Source: Deltaproteobacteria bacterium (GTDB taxonomy: Bacteria > Myxococcota_A > UBA9160 > PR03). Taken from it: 64,000 bases of DNA. The notes beneath the pieces were generated by a model that was not told where the DNA came from, searched no databases, and saw nothing but the letters and a program-made list of their open reading frames with translations. Each line of letters starts with the position of its first letter. Position 1 is the stretch's first letter. Both the position numbers and the translations under genes were made by a program. Shown here one piece after another: positions 28,381-40,810 of this stretch. The stretch covers positions 133,497 through 197,496 of the forward strand of contig JAPSFT010000001.1 of assembly GCA_035063765.1 (NCBI GenBank), given 5' to 3'.

Positions 28381-30114
28381 CTACCTACCACCGCCCTCCG
28401 TGGGGGTCAAGCGCGGGCCGCGCGCCGGAAGCAGCACGCGGAAGGTGGCGCCGCGACCCTCGAGGCTCTGCACCTCGATCCGCCCGCCGTGATCGGTCAC
28501 GATGCGATGGCAGATCATGAGCCCGAGGCCCGAGCCCTGGTCCGGGCCCTTGGTCGTGAAGAAGGGATCGAAGACCCGCTCGAGATCCTCGCTGCGGATC
28601 CCGTAGCCGTCGTCGGCGACCTCGAGGCTGGCGGCCTCCGCGCCCTCGAGCTCGGCCGGACCGACGCGCACCTGCACGTGGCCCATCGGCGCTTCACCCG
28701 CTGCGCCGTGCCCCGGGCGGGCGGTCGCGTGGATCGCGTTGACGAGGAGGTTCAGCGCCACCTGGTGCAGGTGGTCGCGCACGCCGACCACCTTCGGCAG
28801 GTCGCCCTCGTGCTCGACGGTGATCTCGACCCGCGCGCGGCCCGCCTCGGACGCGAGCAGCGCCACCGCCTCGGCCACGACCTCGCCGAGGTCGCAGGCC
28901 GCGCGCGTCCTCTCCTCACCACCTTCGCGGCCGAGGCTCCCCATCGCGCGCACGAGCGCGTGGATGCGGTCCACCTCGCGCAGGCCCAGGTCGTGGTAGT
29001 CGTGCCAGAACTCACGGTCGTCCTCGTGGCGCTTGGCGGGCGCGAGCGTGAGGAAGGTGCGGATCGCCACCAGCGGGTTGTTGATCTCGTGGGCGAGGCC
29101 CGCGGCCAGCGTGCCGAGCGTCCCGAGGCGGTCCGCACGGCGCACCTGCTCGCGCTCGCGCCGGAGGTCGGCGACCAGGCGCGCGTTCTCGATCGCGATC
29201 ACGGCCTGCGCCGCGAGCCCGTCGAGCAGCGTGTAGTCCGAAGCGCCGAAGCCCTCGCCGCCGCTCCGGTTGTCGGCAGCGAGCGCGCCGATGACGCCGG
29301 CGTGTCCCACCAGCGGCACCACCAGGATCTCGTCCGCGGCCACCTCGGTGGCGAGCCGGCGCACCGGGCCCTCGAGCTCGGTGAGCTCGCTCATGCGAAC
29401 GATCTGGGTGCGGTTCTCGAGCAGCCGCGCGACGAAGCCGGGCGCCGTCCTGGCGGGCACGTCGAGGTCGAGCAGGCGCGCCGACGGGCCGTCGCCGGCG
29501 CCTGCCGAGCAGCGGATCGCCTGCAGGCGCGTCCGGGTCTCGTCGAAGAGGAACACGATGCCGCCGTCGAAGCCGAAGTCACCGGTCACGGTGGCGAGAA
29601 TGCGGTCGAGGAGAGGGATCAGCTCGAGCTCGCGGTTCAGGAGCTTCGCGGCGCGGTTGAGCGCCTCCATCTCGTAGAGCAGCTCCTCCCGCTCGCGCAG
29701 GAGCGCGTACATCTCGATGCCGGTGCGGAGCGCGAGCCGCATCTCCTCGGGCCGCCACGGCTTCGCGACGTAGCGATAGATCCAGCCGTTGTTGATCGCC
29801 TCGGAGAGCGTGGCAGCGTCACCGTAGGCGGTGACCAGGATGCGCACGGTGCGCTCGTCCACCTCGCGCACCTTGGCGAGCAGCTCGACGCCGCTCATCC
29901 CGCCCATGCGATGATCCGAGAGCACGAGCGCGGCGGGGTGGTCATGGAGGCTCTGGAGCGCCTCCTCGCCGCTGCGCGCGGTGCGGATCTGGAACTCGCG
30001 CCGGAAGCCCAGCTCGAAGACGCGCAGGTTCTCGGGCTCGTCGTCGACGAAGAGGATCGGGTACTCGCGATGGTCGAGGAGCCGATCGACCCTAGGACCG
30101 AGACGCGGTCGCAT
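28381..30114 (-). CDS. Cytosolic REC-GAF-histidine kinase
   Basis: 577 residues, no transmembrane segment. Residues ~17-135: response-regulator receiver (ILFVDDEPENL, phospho-acceptor Asp67 in LSDHRMGG, Lys in VAKPWRPEE). Residues ~150-320: GAF sensor domain. Residues ~330-570: HisKA with the phospho-His in LAAGLAHEINNPL and HATPase with DHLHQVALNLLVNAIHA, DDGYGI and GSGLGLMICHRI. The start overlaps the preceding kinase by 23 bp, so the two form an operon. The receiver could take phosphate from that kinase and set this kinase's activity (inference). Confidence 0.92.
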   Translation of the reverse strand: MRPRLGPRVDRLLDHREYPILFVDDEPENLRVFELGFRREFQIRTARSGEEALQSLHDHPAALVLSDHRMGGMSGVELLAKVREVDERTVRILVTAYGDAATLSEAINNGWIYRYVAKPWRPEEMRLALRTGIEMYALLREREELLYEMEALNRAAKLLNRELELIPLLDRILATVTGDFGFDGGIVFLFDETRTRLQAIRCSAGAGDGPSARLLDLDVPARTAPGFVARLLENRTQIVRMSELTELEGPVRRLATEVAADEILVVPLVGHAGVIGALAADNRSGGEGFGASDYTLLDGLAAQAVIAIENARLVADLRREREQVRRADRLGTLGTLAAGLAHEINNPLVAIRTFLTLAPAKRHEDDREFWHDYHDLGLREVDRIHALVRAMGSLGREGGEERTRAACDLGEVVAEAVALLASEAGRARVEITVEHEGDLPKVVGVRDHLHQVALNLLVNAIHATARPGHGAAGEAPMGHVQVRVGPAELEGAEAASLEVADDGYGIRSEDLERVFDPFFTTKGPDQGSGLGLMICHRIVTDHGGRIEVQSLEGRGATFRVLLPARGPRLTPTEGGGR

Positions 30115-32944
30115 CGTGAGCCTCCACCGGCAATCCCAGGGTGAACGTGGCGCCGGCGCCCGGGGTGGAGCGCACCGCGAGGGAGCCGCCGTGCGCCTCC
30201 GCGATCCGCCGGCAGATCGAGAGACCGAGCCCCGTCCCGCGCCCGGCGGCCTTGGTGGTGAAGAACGGCTCGAAGATGCGTTCGGCCTGCGCCGGCTCGA
30301 CCCCCGGGCCGTCGTCCGACACCGTGACCTCGACCCCCCGGCCCGAGGCCGAGCGGGCCGCCCGGACCCGGACGGTGCCCCCCGTCTCTTCGAGCGCTTC
30401 CGCAGCGTTCTTGAGCAGGTTCAGGAAGAGCTGCTTGAGGGCGCCGGCGTCCCCCTCGATCAGGGGCAGGTCGGGCGCGATCTCGCGCTCGAGGCGGATC
30501 CCCTTGCTCGCGAGGGAGGAGCCTACGATCGCGAGGGTCGACCCGAGGGCATCGGCCACGTCCGTGTGCCTTTGCCCTCGTTCCCCTGGGGCACCGAAGT
30601 CGCGGAGGTCCGCGACGAGCCGCCCGGTCCGTTCCAGGCCCTCGATCACGATCGCGACCAGCTCGTCGAGCGTCGCCACCGCCTCCTCGAGCCCGATCTC
30701 GCCCTCGAGCCGCTGGAGCTCGCCCACCCGCTCGGGGAGCTTCGACGCATCGCACCAGTCGATCGCGGCCAGCCGGCCGGCGAACTCGCGCACCTCGCCG
30801 ACCGTCTCGCGGAGCACGCGGAGCGAGTTCAGGGCGAAGTTCACGGGGTTGTTGACCTCGTGCGCCACGCCGGCCGCCAGCTCACCCACCGCCGCCAGCC
30901 GCTCGGAGTGGATCAGTTGGACCTCGGTCGCTCGCAGGTGCTGGAGCGCGCGGTCGAGGGCCGCGTTCTGCTCCGCGAGCTCCTCCTGGAGGAGGCGAAG
31001 CCGCACGAGCGCGCGCGCCCGGGCCAGGAGCTCGCGCGGATGGAAGGGCTTCGTCACGTAGTCGTCGGCCCCGAGCTCGAGGCCCTGGATCTTCATCTCG
31101 CGCTCGGCCTTCGACGTGACCAGCATGACCGGCACGCCAGCCAGCGCCGCGTCGCCCTTGATCGCCTCGCACAGCTCCGTCCCGGACATCTCGGGCATCA
31201 TCACGTCGGTGACGACGAGCGCTGGCATGCGCTCGCGCACGAGCTCGAGCGCCTCCCGGCCGTTGCGTGCCGGCCGCACCGCGAACTCGGCGCCCAACAG
31301 GTGGGCCAACAGGCGCCGCATGTCGGCGTTGTCCTCGGCGACCACCACCTCCGGCCGCTGCGCGGGCGACACAGCGGCGGCATCCGGCGTCCTGCCCTCG
31401 GCCGCCTCGAAGCGCTCCACCGTCCGCTCGAGCTCGACGGTCTTGTAGCGGGCGGCGTAGCTGTCCCCGTCGATCGGCAACGATCCGCGCGCATCGTCCT
31501 CGGCGTGGTGATCGAGATCCGCAGCGATCGCGTCGAACGAGCGGCGGAGCGTCACGCCGCGGCCGTCGTCGGTCCGCACCACCTCCTCGGCGTCCGCGTC
31601 CTCGGTGCCGAGCGGCAGGAAAACGTGGAACTGGGAGCCGTGCCCCAGGCCCTCACTCGTCGCCCACGTCCGCCCGCCGTGCAGCGCGACGAGCTCGCGC
31701 ACCAGGGAGAGCCCGATCCCCGTGCCTTCGTGCCGCCGTGTCGCCGAGCCGTCCACCTGGGCGAAGCGGTCGAACACCCGCTCGAGCTCATCGGGCGGGA
31801 TGCCCGCGCCCGTGTCCGCGACGATCAGCTCGACGCCCGCCGGGAGCTCCTCTCCCGGCTCCGCTGCTTCCGCCCGGGCTCCCGATGCTGGCTGCGCGCT
31901 CACCGTGATCCGCCCGCCGGGATCCGTGAACTTGAGCGCGTTCCCGACCAGATTCACGAGCACCTTCTCGAGCGCGTCCGGATCCGCGTTCACGATCGGC
32001 AGCCCACTCACCCATTCCGCCTCGAGTGCCACCCGCTTCCGCTCCGCCATCGCTCGCGCGCTCTCGACCACCTCCTCCACCGCCCTCGCGAGCTCGAGCG
32101 GCTGCCGGTGCACCTCCATGAGCCCACTCTCGATCCGGGCATGGTCCAGCAGGTTGTTGATCAGCTTCAACAACCGCAGCGCGTTCTTGTGCATCGTCTC
32201 GAGATAGGACCGCTGCGCCGGCGGGATCGCCCCAAACTCCCCCGCCAACATCGAATCGAGCGGCGCAAGCATCAACGTCAGCGGCGTCCGCAGCTCGTGG
32301 TGGATGTTTGCGCTGAACCGCGATTTGGCCTCGTCCAGCTGGCGAAGCTGATCGCGCGCGCTTTCGATCTGCCGACGTCGCACGAAATCCTTGAAACGCC
32401 CCGAATCAAGCATGGCCGCGCTCGCCATGCCCACAATCCCACCTGATGCCAAGAAGATCAGATGAATCGCAAACGCTCTCGAGAACCCACCTAGTCCGAA
32501 CACTGGTGCCGCCACGAACGCCCCGAGAGCGAGCGCAACCAGTAGCGCTGTCTGCCTCGCATTCACCGGCACCATCACCGGCACACCCATCACGAACAGC
32601 ATCAGGCCTACATAGTAGTCAGTCGTGCTCGGCGAGTCCGTCTGATACACCACGGCGACCAGCATCCCCAGTGTTGCGAGGGTGACGGTCCACATGGCTC
32701 CAACCGGGTGCAATGAGTACCCACGAAACAGAACCGCGAACAGGACCAAGAAGAGCAGCCCTCGCCATACGAGCATGTCCCACGACTGGATCGGGAACGC
32801 AAATCTATCCAGTCCGCTAAAAATGATGTTGATACCTATCGTGACACCAGCACCTATTCGGACATGGTTGGGCATCAGAACACGGTCGAGTTCCGCTCGG
32901 AACTCGAGGTACGCTGACGGCTCCTTGATGTTCGAGGGATCCAT
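30092..32944 (-). CDS. Membrane hybrid kinase with two kinase cores (HK-REC-HK)
   Basis: 950 residues. Six predicted membrane helices (~28-180) with little periplasmic sequence; first kinase core with His216 in SANIHHELRTPLT and an HATPase (LVNLVGNALKF, DTGAGIPPDE, GTGIGLSLV). A receiver follows at ~530-650 with Asp in VVTDVMMPEMSG (~579) and Lys in YVTKPFHP. A short coiled coil leads to a second kinase core with His ~694 in LAAGVAHEVNNPVNF, then FLNLLKNAAEAL, DDGPGV and GTGLGLSICRRI. This suggests an internal relay. The 5' third, coding the membrane part, is less GC-rich than the rest of the gene and joins the low-GC island. Confidence 0.92.
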   Translation of the reverse strand: MDPSNIKEPSAYLEFRAELDRVLMPNHVRIGAGVTIGINIIFSGLDRFAFPIQSWDMLVWRGLLFLVLFAVLFRGYSLHPVGAMWTVTLATLGMLVAVVYQTDSPSTTDYYVGLMLFVMGVPVMVPVNARQTALLVALALGAFVAAPVFGLGGFSRAFAIHLIFLASGGIVGMASAAMLDSGRFKDFVRRRQIESARDQLRQLDEAKSRFSANIHHELRTPLTLMLAPLDSMLAGEFGAIPPAQRSYLETMHKNALRLLKLINNLLDHARIESGLMEVHRQPLELARAVEEVVESARAMAERKRVALEAEWVSGLPIVNADPDALEKVLVNLVGNALKFTDPGGRITVSAQPASGARAEAAEPGEELPAGVELIVADTGAGIPPDELERVFDRFAQVDGSATRRHEGTGIGLSLVRELVALHGGRTWATSEGLGHGSQFHVFLPLGTEDADAEEVVRTDDGRGVTLRRSFDAIAADLDHHAEDDARGSLPIDGDSYAARYKTVELERTVERFEAAEGRTPDAAAVSPAQRPEVVVAEDNADMRRLLAHLLGAEFAVRPARNGREALELVRERMPALVVTDVMMPEMSGTELCEAIKGDAALAGVPVMLVTSKAEREMKIQGLELGADDYVTKPFHPRELLARARALVRLRLLQEELAEQNAALDRALQHLRATEVQLIHSERLAAVGELAAGVAHEVNNPVNFALNSLRVLRETVGEVREFAGRLAAIDWCDASKLPERVGELQRLEGEIGLEEAVATLDELVAIVIEGLERTGRLVADLRDFGAPGERGQRHTDVADALGSTLAIVGSSLASKGIRLEREIAPDLPLIEGDAGALKQLFLNLLKNAAEALEETGGTVRVRAARSASGRGVEVTVSDDGPGVEPAQAERIFEPFFTTKAAGRGTGLGLSICRRIAEAHGGSLAVRSTPGAGATFTLGLPVEAHDATASRS

Positions 32945-33106
32945 CGGCCGCTACATCGGCCGACGCGCTCCCTTCCATGAGCCAGCGAGACCCACGATGA
33001 AACGCTAAAGACCATCGGCTGCTATCGCTGGATCCGCCGAAGCAGGTGTGGGTGCGAGAGCAACAGCCGATCCGCCAACGCGTACCGCAGCGCTATTCTC
33101 GCAGCG
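32945..33106. other. Intergenic stretch with a 14-bp near-perfect direct repeat
   Basis: 162 bp between two same-strand genes. It holds CGGCCG inverted copies near 32942-32960 and, at its left end, GCAGCGCTATTCTC followed directly by GCAGCGCTAGTCTC (33087-33114), the second copy running into the stop codon of the PilZ-fusion gene. No clear terminator or gene. Confidence 0.5.
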
Positions 33107-35659
33107 CTAGTCTCGCGCCCTAGCAACAAGCACAATGGCCTGCGGGGGATCTCCGAATGATCGCAAGCAGTCAACGACCTCGAAGCCCGCGTCTTCCAGC
33201 ATCGAGGCCATCTCGTCGCTATCGAGGAACCGAAACACCCCCGCTTCCTCCAAGTCCAGGATCCGAGCTGCTTCATTTAAAAACTGCCGTGTGGATGCCT
33301 CGAGCATGCGCTCGGAAGCCTCACCGAATACCTCACGGGCGCGACCCGCACGTAGCTCGTCCACTCCCTCGAAGAACACCCTTGAGGGGTCCGTGTCCTT
33401 CCGCATGGTCGACGCTACTACGCGTCCACCAGGTCGGATCGCTGGCCGAAGATCCCGGAGAAGATCGGCTGGGTCACTGACGTACCCAAGAAGAAGCGAG
33501 AGCAACGCCGCGCTGTATCGCTTCGGAGTGAAGATCCGCTGTCGATCTCGGTGATCTTCGAGATTGCAGCATTCGAACGTGACTCCCATCCTCATACAAG
33601 TCGCGATTCCTAGTCGGGCTCTTGCTCGCTCAAGAGCCTCCTCTACGAAATCAATCTCGTCGATTGAGATACCTCGCAATTCGTAGCCACGTTCGACGAG
33701 GCCAAGAGGAAACGAACCCGTCCCGGACCCTACATCGGCGATTCTGTCGCCGTCGACTAGTCTCAGTGCGTCAATCTGCACGTTCATCAGAGTCCGATAC
33801 GCGCTGCTGGCGTTCATCAGCTCGATCCCGAGGTGGCCGTCTTGGCCAATCAAGTAGCTCCGCCAGAAATCGCGCAGCTGAAGGGATACCTTGGGCACTC
33901 GTGCCCGTTCAGCTGTTCGCCTTTCCTCAAGAAGCCTCAGGTCTGGAAGTACGCCAGCGACTTTGCGTCCCGTCGCTATCGAAGCAGTCTCGGCAGCCAC
34001 AAGCTGAAAGACCTCCAACGCCTCGAGGCTGCTTCGTAACTGGTGCCCTGTCGGGACCTCGATCAAACGGCGACCCTCACGTTGACCGCAACCCAGAATC
34101 TCTCCAACCCGGTCTAGCTCGAGCCAACCGTCGTAAGCTCCGTGGATCCAAGTGATCGGTACGCGAATTGCCTCCATATCCCGGCGGGCGTCCTCGAGGA
34201 ATGGTAGGCGTAAGTCGATCGCATCGCGGACGATCCCATCGACGTCCACCCTTACCCCCATCACCTCTTGTGATCCAAAAGCCAGGCCACGCTCAAAACC
34301 GCCGACGTAGTCCACTCCGCCTGAAACAGCGCGTAGGCCCGATTGAAGATCAGGTGTCCCGACGACACTCACCCACCCAGCGAAGGTCCGGCCGCCGTCG
34401 AGCAGAACGGCACGCCGTCCCTCAATCGATGCTGCACTGAAGGTAATCAAGACGACCTTGGCGCAGTTGAGTTGACCGGATTCGGTCATAAACTGCGCGG
34501 CCGCGGAGATATCCTCGATCGCGTGCGACAGCCTGAAGGCAAGATGCTCCGAGCTGGACGCACTGAAGCCAGGCTCCTTATACGACTCCCCTCTTCGTCG
34601 AGTCCCATCGAATCGCAACACCGCTACGCCGCATCCTGCCTTTCGAAACGTCTCGACAATCGTGAGGGCGAGGGGCAGAAGGGTTTCCTTTGTTCGGCCC
34701 CATGCAGGAGGAATCACGACGCTGGTGATCGGCCCCTCCGCTTCCGTGCGATCGAGGATCCCCCGAAGGCGTTCGCCACGAGAGTTTTCGAAGTCGACGA
34801 GTTCAATCGGGTGCGATGCTATCGCGCTCCCGCGAGACCACACGCGTGCTCTGGCCGCGGCTGCCCCGGCCGACAACAGGTTCACTCCTGTTCGAACACG
34901 CTGCCAACGGCTGGAATCCGCGATTCGTTCCCGACGCTCCACTGCGAGCGGCGGAGTATGTCTTGCTTCGCTGATCGCCATTCCCGCGCACGTCCAATTG
35001 CGAGGCGAAGCCATCGGCTTGAGGTGCTTGATTTGACCCCAACGCATGGTACCGGCCAGGTCGCCATTCTCGAAGCGAACCTCGAGCGTCTCACCCAGAC
35101 GAACGTTCGGATGACCAGCCAAGCAGACGTTGAGACCCACTGGTGAGTAGTCCTCGACAACAGCATCCGAAGACCAACCGGATTCAATGCTCCGAACTCG
35201 AACTGTCCACTTCGAAGGACCGTCGCTTGTTAAACGGTTACGATCCCGTCTTTCGGCGACGTAGAGAATCGTGGGAATCGAGATGCGCGCCGCGGGCTGG
35301 GAGAGGTCGTCGATTGCCAGCGTGGTGAACGAGAAGACCCGCCCATCCACTCCAAAGCGAAGCAGGAACCTGCTTCCTGCCGAACCCTCGAGACCTGAAG
35401 TTCGTACGACAAGATGATCTTCTTCGACCGCTCGGATCCGCGCCTGTTCCGCCTCACCCGTGATCGTGCGCCGGCCGCTCAGGACCAGGCGTGAGGTACA
35501 GGCGACTCTGAAGAGCTCGCGTATCACGGCTCCGTCCGAAACAGCGCCCGCGTGCAATCGACTCAGGGTGGTGTTCGAAACCCCGAAATCGGGCTGGAGT
35601 GCCACGTCCCCCCCCGCGACTGATGGCGACGCATCGGATTCCTGCGTCGAACGCGACAA
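33107..35659 (-). CDS. YcgR-type PilZ - LuxD-like acyl hydrolase - SAM methyltransferase fusion
   Basis: 850 residues, three modules. (1) Residues ~40-230 look like a YcgR c-di-GMP receptor: a PilZN-like beta barrel, then PilZ with RxxxR (Arg138-Arg142) and DYSPVG (170-175, the DxSxxG motif). (2) Residues ~285-590 are an alpha/beta hydrolase resembling the LuxD acyl-transferase of bacterial luminescence: VAVLRFDGTRRRGES, nucleophile in LITFSAASIEG (Ser408 or Ser411), SVVGTPDLQSGL, Asp510 in HGAYDGW, His539 in PTGHQL, and the LuxD-like tail LPDLRLLEERR. (3) Residues ~600-850 are a class I methyltransferase with DVGSGTGSF (642-650). Inferred role: c-di-GMP-controlled acyl transfer or release coupled to methylation. 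Start TTG 35659 is weakly supported. Clearly lower GC than the flanks. Confidence 0.82.
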   Translation of the reverse strand: MSRSTQESDASPSVAGGDVALQPDFGVSNTTLSRLHAGAVSDGAVIRELFRVACTSRLVLSGRRTITGEAEQARIRAVEEDHLVVRTSGLEGSAGSRFLLRFGVDGRVFSFTTLAIDDLSQPAARISIPTILYVAERRDRNRLTSDGPSKWTVRVRSIESGWSSDAVVEDYSPVGLNVCLAGHPNVRLGETLEVRFENGDLAGTMRWGQIKHLKPMASPRNWTCAGMAISEARHTPPLAVERRERIADSSRWQRVRTGVNLLSAGAAAARARVWSRGSAIASHPIELVDFENSRGERLRGILDRTEAEGPITSVVIPPAWGRTKETLLPLALTIVETFRKAGCGVAVLRFDGTRRRGESYKEPGFSASSSEHLAFRLSHAIEDISAAAQFMTESGQLNCAKVVLITFSAASIEGRRAVLLDGGRTFAGWVSVVGTPDLQSGLRAVSGGVDYVGGFERGLAFGSQEVMGVRVDVDGIVRDAIDLRLPFLEDARRDMEAIRVPITWIHGAYDGWLELDRVGEILGCGQREGRRLIEVPTGHQLRSSLEALEVFQLVAAETASIATGRKVAGVLPDLRLLEERRTAERARVPKVSLQLRDFWRSYLIGQDGHLGIELMNASSAYRTLMNVQIDALRLVDGDRIADVGSGTGSFPLGLVERGYELRGISIDEIDFVEEALERARARLGIATCMRMGVTFECCNLEDHRDRQRIFTPKRYSAALLSLLLGYVSDPADLLRDLRPAIRPGGRVVASTMRKDTDPSRVFFEGVDELRAGRAREVFGEASERMLEASTRQFLNEAARILDLEEAGVFRFLDSDEMASMLEDAGFEVVDCLRSFGDPPQAIVLVARARD

Positions 35660-35750
35660 GCCTACCGAGGTTGAACCAAGAAGTGCTACGGGCCTTTACG
35701 CGCAGAGCTGCGGGGCCCGGAGAGCCCCCCCCCGGGGGGGCGGGGGGGCG
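35660..35750. terminator. GC-homopolymer hairpin between the regulator and fusion genes
   Basis: Directly after the regulator's TGA (35751) the sequence has runs of G and C (35725-35750) that can pair as a long pure-GC stem, plus GCAGAGCTGC near 35702. It could stop transcription from the regulator, but there is no T tract and such runs are also error-prone in sequencing. Confidence 0.35.
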
Positions 35751-38700
35751 TCAGCCCGAAGCGATTCTCTGATGGAGGTGCGCCATACCGAGCTTCGCCG
35801 CGCGTGCGCGAGCCTTCCCGCGTAGAGCTTCGATCTCGCTTGGAGCGCGCCCATTCCGCCGCCATACCCGGGCGAGTCCCGCTTCCGAGTGCGCCAACCA
35901 AGGCTCGCCTTCGCACCGGGCGCCTTCCTCGATTGAGCGCCCGTACCACGCCTCTGCCTCCGAATAGAGCCCCATCGTCTCGGAGAGCATTCCGAGATAC
36001 CGCGCTACGGGACCCCAAGTCATTACACAGAATCCCAGAACCAAAACGCGACCCTCAAGAGGAAGCAGTAGCCCCCGCAGCACTTCAGCAGCATCCGCGC
36101 GCCCAAGCAACACCGCCGACTCGCTCATCGCCACTAGCGCGGTCGGCCAATCGAGACGTCGATGCGCTCTCCCACTCACTTCTGCGAGAAGCTCATCGAG
36201 CTCCCTTGAGGCTGCACGAGCTTCTCCGCTCAACGCCAACCCCCAACAGCGACTCGCACGCCAGCCAATGAACACGGGATAACGGTTGCTCGCCGCTTCC
36301 GATATCGCAACGACCTCCGCTCCCGCCCCTCTCTCCGCCGCGTGTATGATCGACTGCGCCATCTTACTCAGGAACACATTCGCATCCCCAATTCGCCTTC
36401 CAATCTCTACACATCGCGCCATACTCTCTTCCGCGCGAAGGAACCGCCCTGTATGAAGCGCTCGCGCCGCGTCGAGCAAATGCCCATACCAGAGTGGTTG
36501 CGGTTGCTTGAGATCACGTGCTAACACGCGGAACTCCGCAGCCGATCTATCGAATGCGCCCATCTCTCCGCACTCGAGCTCACCGACACACTGGTGCAGC
36601 AGGGATACCGCCAGCGCTTCTTTGCTGCCAATCTCACGAGCAATACCGACTGCTTCAGTCGCCAACTCTCGACGCGCATCCACCTCGTATGGTGTCCATT
36701 CAGCCAGCCACCTGGCGAGAATGACCTGAAGCCTTATTGCCGGATCCCATGCTCCTCTGACCAAGGCTGCTGCGTGCCGACTTTGCGCAATGCATTCCTC
36801 TCCGTCCTCCGACCAGAACAGCGCAGCCCCTAGACGCGCCATCACTAGAGCACGCCACTGCTCCTCACCCGTATCCAACGAGGCCAGTGCTCGGCGGAGA
36901 ACCGAAACCAAGAACTCATCTGGCACTCCCGCTTCGACCGCAAAGAACCCTGGCGCTGCACCGATCGCGGCCTCCGCCAACAACCCGGGTGCCGCGATCG
37001 AGTCCGCCACTCTCGCCGCACGTTCGAAGGTCTGCCGGGCTGCTGCCCGGTCGCCCGAGCGAAGCTGTTCTGTGCCCATCCTCAGCAAGATCGCGCAATG
37101 GCGCTCAAACCCTTCGCTCCACGCGCCCTCGGCTATCCGCAACGCCCGCCCAAAGTGGACCGACGCTTCTTCGTATGCCAATCCATCACTCGCGGCACGC
37201 CCAGCCTCGCAAGCCAAATCAATAGCTCGCTCAGCTCCACAAACCTCGATCGCCTCCCCGAAGTGGTATGCGATCTCCGGCAAACGCTCACGCCGCATCG
37301 GCTCAAATCTATCAAGAACCTCGCCAATCGCGGCGTGGAGTTGAGTACGTTCCGGATCGTCGAGGCCCTCGTACAACACATCTCGCACAAGGGCATGCGA
37401 GAACCTCCACCGCTCCCTGTCCCCGCCAATCCGTGTGACAACCCCTCCCGACGAGGCCTCACGCAGAGCCGTGCACACCCTGTTGCTATTCCATCCGACA
37501 GCACGTTGGACGAGCCAGCTCTCGAACTCACGCCCCACAACTGCCGCTACTCGGAGCAACTTCCTACCGTCAGAGCTTAAGGCGTCAACCTGCCGCACGA
37601 CCGCATCCCGGACTGTCCGCGGCAATGCGCCCGCGACCCGCCCTGTCGCTTCCGGATCACTCGGCAGAAATGGCAGAAGCTGCCACAAGAAAAAGGGATT
37701 CCCGTTCGTAAGATTCCCGATCGCATCCGTCTGCTCAGGCGACGGCGTTCGCCCCGTCGCTCTCCGTATCAGCTTTGCAATGTCGCTCGATCCCAGTCCT
37801 TCAAGGGCCAACGTGATACCATCCACACGTCGCGAGATCGTGGACACGAGATCCAATCGACCTTGCTCCGACTCCAGCTCCAGCCGCCGGTACGTAGCCA
37901 GCACGAGCATGTGCTCCTCTTGGAGATCGTGCAGAACGAAGTCGAGGAGGAGCAATGTCGACATATCAGCTCGATGGATATCATCGAGAACCAGTACAAG
38001 AACACGGCCCGCGCTTGCTCGCCGAAGAAACCGAGCGAAGCTGTCGAATAGCCGAAATCGTGCGTTAGCCGGCGGCAGCACATTGGAAGCCGATTCGGAG
38101 GCAGATCGCAGCCCAGGAACCCATGCTGCGATCTCTGGAGCATCACACGCGAGCATCTGCGCTGCATCCCGATTCACTTCGCCCTCGCAGAGCTGCTTCG
38201 CGATGTGGCCCCATGGCCAGAACGAGGGAGCACCCTCCTCTTCGCGACACCGTCCAACTGCAACGAGCGCACCCACGTCACACGCGATCGAGGCGAACTC
38301 CTCGGTCAGGCGCGACTTACCGATTCCTGGCTCTCCCAAGATGCACGCGAACCGGGCGCGCGAACCGCCCCGGCTCGAGAGTAGATCTGTAAGAGCTGAC
38401 AGCTCGAAGTCTCGGCCGACGAACGATGTCGATGTCGTAGCGTCCCTACCTAGGGGCTCCTTCTGGCAGTCCTCGACTTCTGTGTGAAGGCGATATCCCC
38501 GCCCTCGATGCGTAATGATTACCTGAGCCCTCTTCGCGTTATCTCCGAGAGCCCGACGCGCTGCGGCTATCGCGACGGTCAAGGATCCCTTCGATACCGC
38601 TCGGCCCTTCCAGAGAACGCGAAATAGCTCGTCGTTTGGCACAATTCGACCACGATTCTGAAGAAGGTAGGCAATCAGGTCGAAGACCCTGCGCTCGATC

Positions 38701-38780
38701 GGGACTACTTGGCCACCGCGCCGCAGTTCGAAGAGCCGAAGATCGATTTCGCAGTTACCGAGACGGATCGTGTTCGTCAC
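35751..38780 (-). CDS. Winged-helix / AAA (STAND) / TPR transcriptional regulator
   Basis: 1009 residues. Residues ~1-100: OmpR/CadC-type winged helix (VVPIERRVFDLIAYLLQN, VITHRGRGYRLHTEV). Residues ~118-450: AAA/STAND ATPase with VGRDFEL, Walker A GEPGIGKSRL (149-158), Walker B VLVLVLDDIH and the GNPFFLWQLLPFL region. Residues ~470-1000: tandem TPR-like helices (AGRAASDGLAYEEASVHFGRALRIAEG). Such proteins sense a signal by the TPR part, use ATP to assemble and activate promoters. GTG start at 38780 with GAGGG upstream and a palindrome beyond. It precedes the PilZ fusion on the same strand (91 bp), the likely target (inference). Confidence 0.88.
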   Translation of the reverse strand: MTNTIRLGNCEIDLRLFELRRGGQVVPIERRVFDLIAYLLQNRGRIVPNDELFRVLWKGRAVSKGSLTVAIAAARRALGDNAKRAQVIITHRGRGYRLHTEVEDCQKEPLGRDATTSTSFVGRDFELSALTDLLSSRGGSRARFACILGEPGIGKSRLTEEFASIACDVGALVAVGRCREEEGAPSFWPWGHIAKQLCEGEVNRDAAQMLACDAPEIAAWVPGLRSASESASNVLPPANARFRLFDSFARFLRRASAGRVLVLVLDDIHRADMSTLLLLDFVLHDLQEEHMLVLATYRRLELESEQGRLDLVSTISRRVDGITLALEGLGSSDIAKLIRRATGRTPSPEQTDAIGNLTNGNPFFLWQLLPFLPSDPEATGRVAGALPRTVRDAVVRQVDALSSDGRKLLRVAAVVGREFESWLVQRAVGWNSNRVCTALREASSGGVVTRIGGDRERWRFSHALVRDVLYEGLDDPERTQLHAAIGEVLDRFEPMRRERLPEIAYHFGEAIEVCGAERAIDLACEAGRAASDGLAYEEASVHFGRALRIAEGAWSEGFERHCAILLRMGTEQLRSGDRAAARQTFERAARVADSIAAPGLLAEAAIGAAPGFFAVEAGVPDEFLVSVLRRALASLDTGEEQWRALVMARLGAALFWSEDGEECIAQSRHAAALVRGAWDPAIRLQVILARWLAEWTPYEVDARRELATEAVGIAREIGSKEALAVSLLHQCVGELECGEMGAFDRSAAEFRVLARDLKQPQPLWYGHLLDAARALHTGRFLRAEESMARCVEIGRRIGDANVFLSKMAQSIIHAAERGAGAEVVAISEAASNRYPVFIGWRASRCWGLALSGEARAASRELDELLAEVSGRAHRRLDWPTALVAMSESAVLLGRADAAEVLRGLLLPLEGRVLVLGFCVMTWGPVARYLGMLSETMGLYSEAEAWYGRSIEEGARCEGEPWLAHSEAGLARVWRRNGRAPSEIEALRGKARARAAKLGMAHLHQRIASG

Positions 38781-39244
38781 CAGAGGGGTCCCTCATGCTG
38801 AAGCCAGTCTATATCGGCTCCGATAGCTCGACTACTCCTGGAGGTTGTTTCTGTGTCACCAGCCACTGATCCCAGCTCCTACTCCCATGAACGACAGTTC
38901 CTCTCCTGGGAGGGTCGCTAACCAGCTCCCGGGCTCATCAACCTGCCGATTGCGCCCCGCCCGATCGGTCCCACTCGCCTTCGGTGCCCGGACCATCTGA
39001 TCGGAGAACGCAGTTCGGAAATGGGGACCTGAGCGCATTTGCCGCAAGGGATATCCCTCGCATAGGATCGAGTGGAAAGGGGGTTCTCGTCCGAGACGGC
39101 CGGTACGATTCCTTATCGCCAACCGCACCTACACTGGCCCTCTCCGACATGCACCTCTACGACATCGTCTGCGACCGCGACTCGGATCTGCCCACCCTAC
39201 CTGGGCGCCTCACCAGAGGGATCATCAGAGGGAGCACGCGACTC
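38781..39244. other. 464-bp divergent intergenic region at the right edge of the low-GC island
   Basis: Lies between the minus-strand regulator and the plus-strand acyl-CoA synthetase. It contains the palindrome at 38812-38825 and otherwise no recognisable gene. Base composition changes from the island type to the high-GC type near its right end. An open frame in phase with the synthetase extends back to 38984, with an ATG at 39149, but the extra residues do not look like a synthetase N-terminus. Confidence 0.6.
38812..38825. promoter_or_regulatory. Perfect 14-bp palindrome upstream of the AAA/TPR regulator
   Basis: TATCGGCTCCGATA has six-base arms and a two-base centre, 32-45 bp upstream of the regulator's GTG. 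Position and symmetry suit an operator for autoregulation or for a divergent promoter. OmpR-type domains more often bind direct repeats, so the binder is unknown. Confidence 0.4.
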
Positions 39245-40810
39245 ATGTTCACCGTTACGACGCACGCAAAGAAGCATCCGGACCGCGCCGCGGTGGTCTA
39301 TGGGAATGGCGAGAACGTCGAAAGCTACGGGGTGCTGGAGGAGCGGTCGCGGCGGCTTGCTCATCTGTTCCGGCGCTGGGGGCTCGAGCCTGGCGACTGC
39401 GTCGCGTTGCTGCTCGGAAACGATGACTCGTTCTTCGACGTGTTCTGGGCGTGCCACAGGGCTGGCCTCTACTTCACGCCGGTGAACTGGCACCTGCAGC
39501 GGGACGAGGTGCAGTACATCGTCGAGAACTGCGATGCGGGGGCATTCCTCGCGCACGCGCGGTTCGCGGAGATCGCGGCGGAGGTGGCGCACGGGGCGCC
39601 TCGGCTGCGCGTCTCGGCGAGCGTCGGCGGGGCGATCCCGGGGTTCCGGGCGCTCGAGGACGAGGTGGCGAGTGCGCCGGCCGATGCTCCGCTTGTCGAG
39701 GAGCTCGAGGGCTCGGTGATGTTGTACTCGTCGGGCACGACGGGGCGCCCGAAGGGCGTGCGGCGGCCGCTCGCTCGCGTGCCGGCGGGCGATCCCGCGG
39801 CGGCGATCGTGGCGGTGGGACTGCTCGGCATGTTCGGAATGAGGGAGGGCGACGTCTACCTGTCGCCTGCGCCGCTCTATCACGCTGCACCGCTGCTCTT
39901 TGCGTCCTCGCAGCATCGGATTGGGGCGACGACCGTGGTGATGCGGCGCTTCGAGCCCGAGGAAGCGCTGCAGATCATCCAGGAGCGACGCGTGACGACG
40001 TCCCAGTGGGTGCCGACCCACTTCAAGCGCCTGCTCTCGCTACCCGAGGCGGTACGCGCACGCTACGACGTGTCGTCGCTGCGCGTCGCCGTGCACGCGG
40101 CTGCTCCCTGTCCGATCGCCGTGAAGGAGGCGATGATCGGCTGGTGGGGGGATGCCATCCAGGAGTACTACGCCGGCACGGAAGGGGGTGGAACGTTGAT
40201 CCGGGCCCAGGAATGGCTGACGCACAAGGGATCGGTCGGACGTCACTGGACCGGTGGGAAGATCCATCTCTTCGACGACGAAGGGCGCGAGGTCGAGGAA
40301 CCCAACCGGGAGGGGGCGATCTACTTCGAGGCGCCGCCGGATCCGGCAGCCCGCTTCAACTACTACAAGGACGAGCAGAAGACCGCCGGCACCTACCGTG
40401 GCGATCTCTTCACGATCGGCGACATCGGCTACCTGGACGCCGAGGGCTACCTCTACCTCACCGATCGGCAGTCCAACATGATCATCTCGGGAGGGGTGAA
40501 CATCTACCCGCAGGAGACCGAGAGCCACCTGGTCACGCATCCGAAGGTCTACGACGTGGCGGTGATCGGCGTGCCCGACGACGAGATGGGTGAGGCGGTG
40601 AAGGCGGTGGTGGTGCCGGCTGCGGGCTGCGCGCCTGGCCCCGCACTCGCCGACGAGCTGATCGGCTACTGTCGCGCTCACATCGCACACTACAAGTGCC
40701 CGCGCACGATCGACTTCGTGGACGAGCTTCCGCGTACCGAGACCGGGAAGATGCAGAAGCGCAGGCTGCGCGACCGCTACTGGCAGGGCCACGCCGGCCG
40801 GCTCGTGTAG
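39245..40810 (+). CDS. Acyl-CoA synthetase (FadD-like)
   Basis: 521 residues from ATG 39245. Opens with HAKKHPDRAAVVYGNGE, AMP-binding loop LYSSGTTGRPKGV, YYAGTEGGG adenine motif, TIGDIGYLDAEGYLYLTDRQSNMIISGGVNIYPQE hinge and RTETGKMQKRRL with the catalytic Lys. Fatty or aromatic acid substrate not determined. First gene of a plus-strand set (rhomboid, SDR, exported protein). GGGAG stands ten bases before the ATG. GC content is high, unlike the region just upstream. Confidence 0.92.
   Translation: MFTVTTHAKKHPDRAAVVYGNGENVESYGVLEERSRRLAHLFRRWGLEPGDCVALLLGNDDSFFDVFWACHRAGLYFTPVNWHLQRDEVQYIVENCDAGAFLAHARFAEIAAEVAHGAPRLRVSASVGGAIPGFRALEDEVASAPADAPLVEELEGSVMLYSSGTTGRPKGVRRPLARVPAGDPAAAIVAVGLLGMFGMREGDVYLSPAPLYHAAPLLFASSQHRIGATTVVMRRFEPEEALQIIQERRVTTSQWVPTHFKRLLSLPEAVRARYDVSSLRVAVHAAAPCPIAVKEAMIGWWGDAIQEYYAGTEGGGTLIRAQEWLTHKGSVGRHWTGGKIHLFDDEGREVEEPNREGAIYFEAPPDPAARFNYYKDEQKTAGTYRGDLFTIGDIGYLDAEGYLYLTDRQSNMIISGGVNIYPQETESHLVTHPKVYDVAVIGVPDDEMGEAVKAVVVPAAGCAPGPALADELIGYCRAHIAHYKCPRTIDFVDELPRTETGKMQKRRLRDRYWQGHAGRLV

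Follow-up and report, generated by a model that had tools for sequence, protein, structure and literature searches.

What does a bacterium make with a single polypeptide that joins a c-di-GMP receptor module, an acyl hydrolase and a methyltransferase, and which genes act together with it? The question is raised by a gene in the 64,000-nucleotide stretch of DNA analyzed here (the window), which comes from a Deltaproteobacteria bacterium. In the original prediction, the gene product was read as a PilZ module, a LuxD-like hydrolase and a methyltransferase in this order, and the order is upheld by profile and fold searches. Based on sequence, predicted structures and analogy with known systems, we lean somewhat toward the view that the fusion protein uses two enzyme activities to synthesize a fatty-acid-derived signal, that the adjacent hybrid kinase with six transmembrane (TM) helices is the receptor of this signal, and that the synthase and sensor are exchanged together. 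The features of the locus are listed in Table 1.

Table 1. Positions of the fusion gene, its domains and its neighbors in the window.
Feature	Position	Strand	Remarks
REC-GAF-HisKA-HATPase protein	28381..30114	-	Overlaps the end of the hybrid kinase gene by 23 bp; PhcR layout plus a GAF domain
Hybrid histidine kinase	30092..32944	-	Six-TM sensor, HisKA-HATPase-REC-HisKA-HATPase; accompanies the fusion gene at all informative loci
Sensor domain of the kinase with six membrane helices, aa 1-200	32345..32944	-	Low GC3 as in the fusion gene; GC3 steps up at codon -15 relative to the H-box (near 32344)
Low-GC island (sensor domain, fusion, regulator)	32344..39240		About 58-64% GC vs 68-76% outside
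Fusion protein, 850 aa	33107..35659	-	YcgR-like PilZ module, LuxD-like acyl hydrolase and SAM methyltransferase; proposed signal synthase
Class I SAM-dependent methyltransferase	33110..33889	-	Residues 591-850; DVGSGTG motif at 642-648
LuxD-like alpha/beta acyl hydrolase	33890..34813	-	Residues 283-590; triad S408-D510-H539
YcgR-N-like barrel and PilZ domain	34925..35578	-	Residues 28-245; RxxxR, R138/R142; DxSxxG, D170/S172/G175
Winged-helix (Trans_reg_C), AAA_16 and TPR regulator	35751..38780	-	91 bp upstream of the fusion gene; low GC
FadD4-like acyl-CoA synthetase	39245..40810	+	Flanks the low-GC island; homology and synteny from about 39245

The fusion gene and its family

The 850 codons of the fusion gene are uninterrupted by a stop codon. 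The full-length AlphaFold model has a mean pLDDT of 85, and the TTG start and the first ~27 residues, which have low pLDDT values and are unaligned, are uncertain. Searching whole genomes, we found the fusion, complete or nearly so, in single open frames in 28 further genomes from the same order (about 35-50% identity), and most of these relatives are about 36-43% identical to the window protein over the full length. Because these genomes keep one open frame, the gene is not a frameshift join, and the continuous frames in so many genomes rule out a fusion created by a sequencing error. A query of genome contigs with the single protein gave no relatives, but an alignment query did recover them, and the same three-domain order is encoded at 51 named loci in Myxococcota and Acidobacteriota/Aminicenantes, some of which are truncated at contig ends. 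The spread is patchy, with a whole-protein match in one of six genomes of the window's own family, of which at least two assemblies miss the region.

The full-length fusion is conserved in Myxococcota, and the Acidobacteriota/Aminicenantes form is longer (~1180 aa in the Acidobacteriota synthases). In two remoter relatives (L030 and L031, 25-27% identity), the PilZ region is in tandem and the methyltransferase carries an insertion. Across 48 fusion proteins, R138, R142, G175, G226, S408, D510, H539, D642, G644, G646, and D670 are invariant. Some Acidobacteriota synthases have a receiver-like domain at the N-terminus. In L055, it is a Pfam match scoring 28.4 where the cut-off is 30.2, and this protein also has a second PilZ stretch. 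On visual inspection, L061, L063, and L080 appear to retain the phospho-accepting aspartate of the receiver, whereas most other Acidobacteriota N-termini displayed have another residue there; judging from these sequences, direct phosphorylation of the Acidobacteriota synthases by the kinase has possibly disappeared or given way to something else. Three loci labeled Acidobacteriota, Thermoanaerobaculia, and Spirochaeta (L038, L050, and L054) carry Myxococcota-type versions, reflecting either mislabeled MAGs or transfer. In the open-access literature, we found no description of the fusion architecture, none with LuxD and PilZ together, and none joining quorum sensing, both phyla and PilZ.

Three domains in one polypeptide

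With the window fusion as a single sequence, Pfam matched the methyltransferase alone, and therefore a family alignment was built. The RxxxR (138-142) and DxSxxG (170-175) motifs, which had been pointed out after a YcgR-like barrel, are kept across the family: R138, R142, G175, and an Asp or Asn at position 170 are each found in 48 of 48 proteins, and a Ser or Thr at position 172 in 47 of 48. Pfam PilZ gave no match with the window protein alone and matched 17 of 29 family members (best 2.4e-14). The AlphaFold model of residues 28-245 (pLDDT 87) was searched with Foldseek, and all 17 PDB matches at E ≤ 0.001 were two-barrel c-di-GMP receptors of the YcgR, PP4397, VCA0042, MrkH, MotI, and PlzA types; the sequence of the module matched the PDB weakly (E 0.014-0.04). 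YcgR, PP4397, and VCA0042 share the two-barrel fold and both motifs with the module of the fusion. They are flagellar-brake or stand-alone receptors, whereas the window module is fused to two enzymes. The source genome encodes GGDEF proteins (10 matches above the cut-off). From the motifs and the modeled fold, we infer that the signal output is set by c-di-GMP.

The originally proposed resemblance of the middle domain to LuxD is borne out by both types of searches. The best PDB match of the hydrolase family profile is LuxD of Vibrio harveyi (1THT, 1.3e-6), with the second-best match at 0.0036, and 1THT is the sole PDB match at E ≤ 0.1 of a profile spanning the two phyla (1.6e-6). It also ranks at the top in Foldseek (6.6e-13, with a TM-score of 0.79 on the target). 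S408, D510, and H539 align one-to-one with positions 114, 211, and 241 of the 1THT chain, which we take to be the LuxD triad. The triad had been proposed with either Ser408 or Ser411 as the nucleophile; S408, D510, and H539 are each present in 48 of 48 proteins, whereas residue 411 is mostly Ala in the family and this option falls away. Pfam Acyl_transf_2 (PF02273) matches 16 of 33 hydrolase domains (best 3.6e-10); its cut-off is passed by the Acidobacteriota protein L055 (23.2 vs 20.3), and the window domain is without a Pfam match. A generic S33 hydrolase was also considered. Hydrolase_4 matches 13 relatives, but LuxD and Acyl_transf_2 give more and better matches. LuxD, a myristoyl-ACP thioesterase of bioluminescent Vibrio, is thus the closest match of the domain in both sequence and fold, nearer than other alpha/beta hydrolases, which makes hydrolysis of acyl-ACP or acyl-CoA its putative activity. 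The lux operon encodes LuxD as a single-domain protein, whereas the window domain lies within a three-domain protein and has no luciferase context.

The SAM motif originally noted as DVGSGTGSF proved sound: Pfam Methyltransf_23 matches the window methyltransferase with 1.9e-11, and the D642-x-G-x-G residues are present in 48 of 48 proteins. Both the Rossmann-like fold and the DxGxGxG motif are present, placing the domain in class I. Its matches are many and all belong to generic class I SAM families, none of which fixes the acceptor. An S33-only hydrolase, an absent PilZ domain or a frame joined by error had each been named as grounds for abandoning the original prediction, and none of them was found. 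Its reading as second-messenger-gated synthesis of a methylated acyl product is partly supported and is the best available, with the chemistry and the gating remaining putative.

Partner kinase, neighboring genes and the low-GC island

We surveyed the linkage to the hybrid kinase by crude gene calling and tblastn in the 51 named loci and the window. A relative of the kinase lies downstream on the same strand in 45 of 45 informative loci, either directly or after an MMPL exporter gene. In the seven loci without a kinase, the contig runs out no more than about 540 bp from the fusion gene, except in L038, where 2.3 kb remain and are filled by an MMPL gene; these loci are uninformative because they contain too little downstream DNA. 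In the window, 162 bp separate the fusion and kinase genes. The start of the kinase gene and the end of the fusion gene overlap by 4-38 bp in most Acidobacteriota loci, which suggests translational coupling. The kinase consists of six hydrophobic helices followed by an H-box, a HisKA-HATPase core and a receiver, with a second HisKA-HATPase in the Myxococcota form. Distances of the fusion and the whole kinase correlate strongly (r of 0.95 overall, 0.79 within Myxococcota, and 0.87 within Acidobacteriota), as is expected of co-inherited genes.

The sole significant PDB match of the six-TM sensor is the six-TM domain of the diguanylate cyclase ImcA from Pseudomonas aeruginosa (8WCN, 1.3e-5). The output of ImcA, which has been studied for its iron response (PMC10904736), is a GGDEF domain and not a kinase. 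Among curated sensor families, the six-TM domain of the window protein matched MASE8 below the cut-off only, and NCBIfam gave nothing consistent.

The REC-GAF-HisKA-HATPase gene follows the hybrid kinase in the window and several relatives and is absent next door in other loci. An MMPL exporter gene adjoins the fusion gene in 20 loci; it lies between the fusion and kinase genes in many Myxococcota loci, is divergent on the other side in others, and has no counterpart in the window operon. Relatives of the winged-helix regulator occur near the fusion in seven other Myxococcota-type loci, and it is possibly an output or input regulator of the system. The acyl-CoA synthetase, the open reading frame of which as listed begins at 38984, too early compared with the start indicated by homology and synteny, had been pointed out as a neighbor. 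We rejected it as a conserved partner, since a relative lies near one other locus only and the gene is outside the low-GC island.

The layout recalls the phcBSRQ quorum-sensing operon of Ralstonia, in which a methyltransferase gene is followed by a sensor kinase gene and a REC-kinase gene; the same order and domain types are found in the window and several other loci. In Ralstonia, the SAM methyltransferase PhcB produces methyl 3-hydroxymyristate or 3-hydroxypalmitate, PhcS senses the product, and PhcR is a soluble REC-kinase; the sequences of PhcB and PhcS separate the strains that use one signal from those that use the other (PMC8578825). Balancing selection acts on phcB and phcS according to a study that likens the system to agr (PMC6580516). 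These strain types and the balancing selection resemble the mosaic of synthase and sensor described below. PhcB is described as a methyltransferase only, whereas the window enzyme is fused to thioesterase-like and PilZ domains, and the window-type kinase, unlike PhcS, is of hybrid type, containing a receiver and two kinase cores. Neither a phcA-like regulator nor phcQ was identified, and plasmid searches for a relation to PhcB and PhcS returned generic matches or none at all. The analogy to the Phc operon is a resemblance in layout and logic, not one of membership. A lipid-type autoinducer synthase is encoded beside a multi-TM kinase in RpfF/RpfC (DSF), LqsA/LqsS, and CqsA/CqsS as well. The synthase folds of RpfF, LqsA, and CqsA differ from the fusion, and the likeness is again one of gene layout.

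The sensor domain, the fusion gene and the regulator gene form a low-GC island, in which GC drops to about 58-64% from about 70-75%, over approximately 32.3-39.2 kb of the window. Two genomes, one of the same genus (G001) and one of another genus of the same family (G002), are syntenic on both sides of the island with 72-77% nucleotide identity. At the left edge, the G001 contig ends at window position 32367 and the G002 contig at 32341; at the right edge, the G002 contig begins at 39245 and the G001 alignment stops at 39240, about 400 bp before the contig end. These contig breaks are supporting evidence only, because composition or coverage can also cause breaks.

The left junction of the island falls within the kinase gene. 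GC3 in the window kinase steps from 0.69 to 0.92 at codon -15 from the H-box, and steps in other Myxococcota lie at -10 (L035 and L036), -11 (L048), -17 (L043), +7 (L052), and -53 (L037). Each was located as a single changepoint along the kinase gene, with a likelihood ratio that was reached in 0 of 100 shuffles. At the Myxococcota step loci, GC3 is about 0.63-0.78 in the fusion, MMPL, and sensor regions and about 0.85-0.94 in the remainder of the kinase and the next gene. Other TM kinases of the source genome show a half-to-half difference of -0.03 (sd 0.05, n=10) compared with -0.21 here, which rules out the idea that membrane domains have low GC3 in general. The controls with other large differences (L125 and L116) have very long open frames and steps 92-144 codons before the H-box, and their low-GC3 parts are probably non-coding upstream sequence. 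Most loci lack a GC3 step, and none is clear near the junction in the L032-L034 or L040-L047 group. In three low-GC Aminicenantes loci (L060, L066, and L067), GC3 of the fusion and sensor is above that of the kinase, the reverse of Myxococcota, with the reversed step near -16 in L066 and L067.

The recurrence of the junction in separate lineages, which is otherwise hard to explain, points to recombination that joins a conserved kinase core to a variable block of sensor plus synthase. We read the low-GC block as a swappable signal/receptor cassette, with exchange between strains suggested by the common composition and the position of the step. Tree distances gave a mixed picture of co-inheritance. 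In FastTree distances for 21 loci, used without a species tree, the Spearman correlations were 0.71 for sensor and hydrolase, 0.49 for sensor and kinase, and 0.38 for sensor and methyltransferase, and the partial correlations with the sensor were 0.60 for the hydrolase and 0.17 for the methyltransferase. The hydrolase thus appears to follow the sensor and the methyltransferase does not, and we set distance correlation aside as proof of co-evolution.

A proposed lipid signal and its alternatives

A thioesterase, a methyltransferase, an exporter and a membrane kinase occur together, and therefore the simplest account is a fatty-acid signal that is made, exported and sensed by one operon. In the mechanism we propose, c-di-GMP would bind the PilZ module, identified by its motif and fold, and set the activity. 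The LuxD-like domain would free a fatty acid from acyl-ACP or acyl-CoA via S408-D510-H539, a substrate suggested by the triad and the homology, and the methyltransferase, given its SAM fold, would methylate it, most simply at the carboxyl group, in which case a methyl ester would be formed, as by PhcB. The product would leave the cell by diffusion or through MMPL, which is adjacent in relatives but not in the window. The six-TM sensor, as linkage and domain content suggest, would detect the product and signal via the kinase, its receiver and the REC-GAF-kinase. Joint exchange of the synthase and sensor domain between strains on a conserved kinase chassis would keep signal and receptor matched.

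More tentatively, with our confidence falling a little short of an even balance, the locus may represent a new type of cell-cell communication shared by Myxococcota and Acidobacteriota, in which a c-di-GMP-gated thioesterase-methyltransferase makes the signal, a six-TM kinase receives it, and a module of synthase, exporter and sensor recombines at a fixed junction to give strain-specific dialects, similar to agr or comQXP but with a lipid. If so, a lipid-signal quorum system would be added to two phyla, in which, to our knowledge, few have been described. One polypeptide would tie signal production directly to c-di-GMP, which normally lies downstream of such signals, and a signal synthase and a receptor domain would apparently be exchanged together while the rest of the kinase stays conserved.

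The fusion may instead make or modify a methylated acyl surface component under c-di-GMP control, with MMPL placing this component, the kinase monitoring the envelope and no signal passing between cells. MMPL transporters often move structural lipids, a surface lifestyle is commonly under c-di-GMP control, and the exporter gene indeed adjoins the fusion at those 20 loci. By itself, this envelope role would leave unexplained why, in seven loci, the composition of the synthase is matched by the sensor half of the kinase alone and why the kinase is obligate in Acidobacteriota, where no MMPL gene adjoins. The obligate kinase, the MMPL genes in relatives and the cassette boundary within the kinase gene together lead us to favor a signal over a surface lipid, and we regard the latter as unlikely.

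Two other roles are much less probable. CheR and CheB add and remove methyl groups on receptors, and the fusion, which combines a methyltransferase with a serine hydrolase in a single polypeptide beside a receptor kinase, has the parts needed to adapt the kinase or another receptor in this way, with PilZ setting the balance; we consider this highly improbable, given that the hydrolase is closest to LuxD and no Che-type family is among the Pfam matches. Marginally less probable still is that the hydrolase, the triad of which is intact, destroys a methyl-ester signal while the methyltransferase acts elsewhere. Serine hydrolases do cleave fatty-acid methyl esters, but the domain is closer to an acyl-ACP thioesterase than to known esterases, and fusing a remover to an enzyme that adds methyl groups would be futile in the absence of regulation. 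That two or three genes were joined through a sequencing or assembly error, or that the resemblance is due to chance, can practically be dismissed, given a continuous frame in independent genomes of two phyla and invariant residues in all three domains.

A fatty-acid desaturase gene adjoins the fusion on the opposite strand in L051 and L052 (with a Pfam match in L052 and the same cluster in L051), which fits a fatty-acid product of the fusion protein. A protein combining kinase-like and deoxycytidylate-deaminase parts (cluster c14) is encoded near the fusion in five Myxococcota loci, including L037 (5840-6838).
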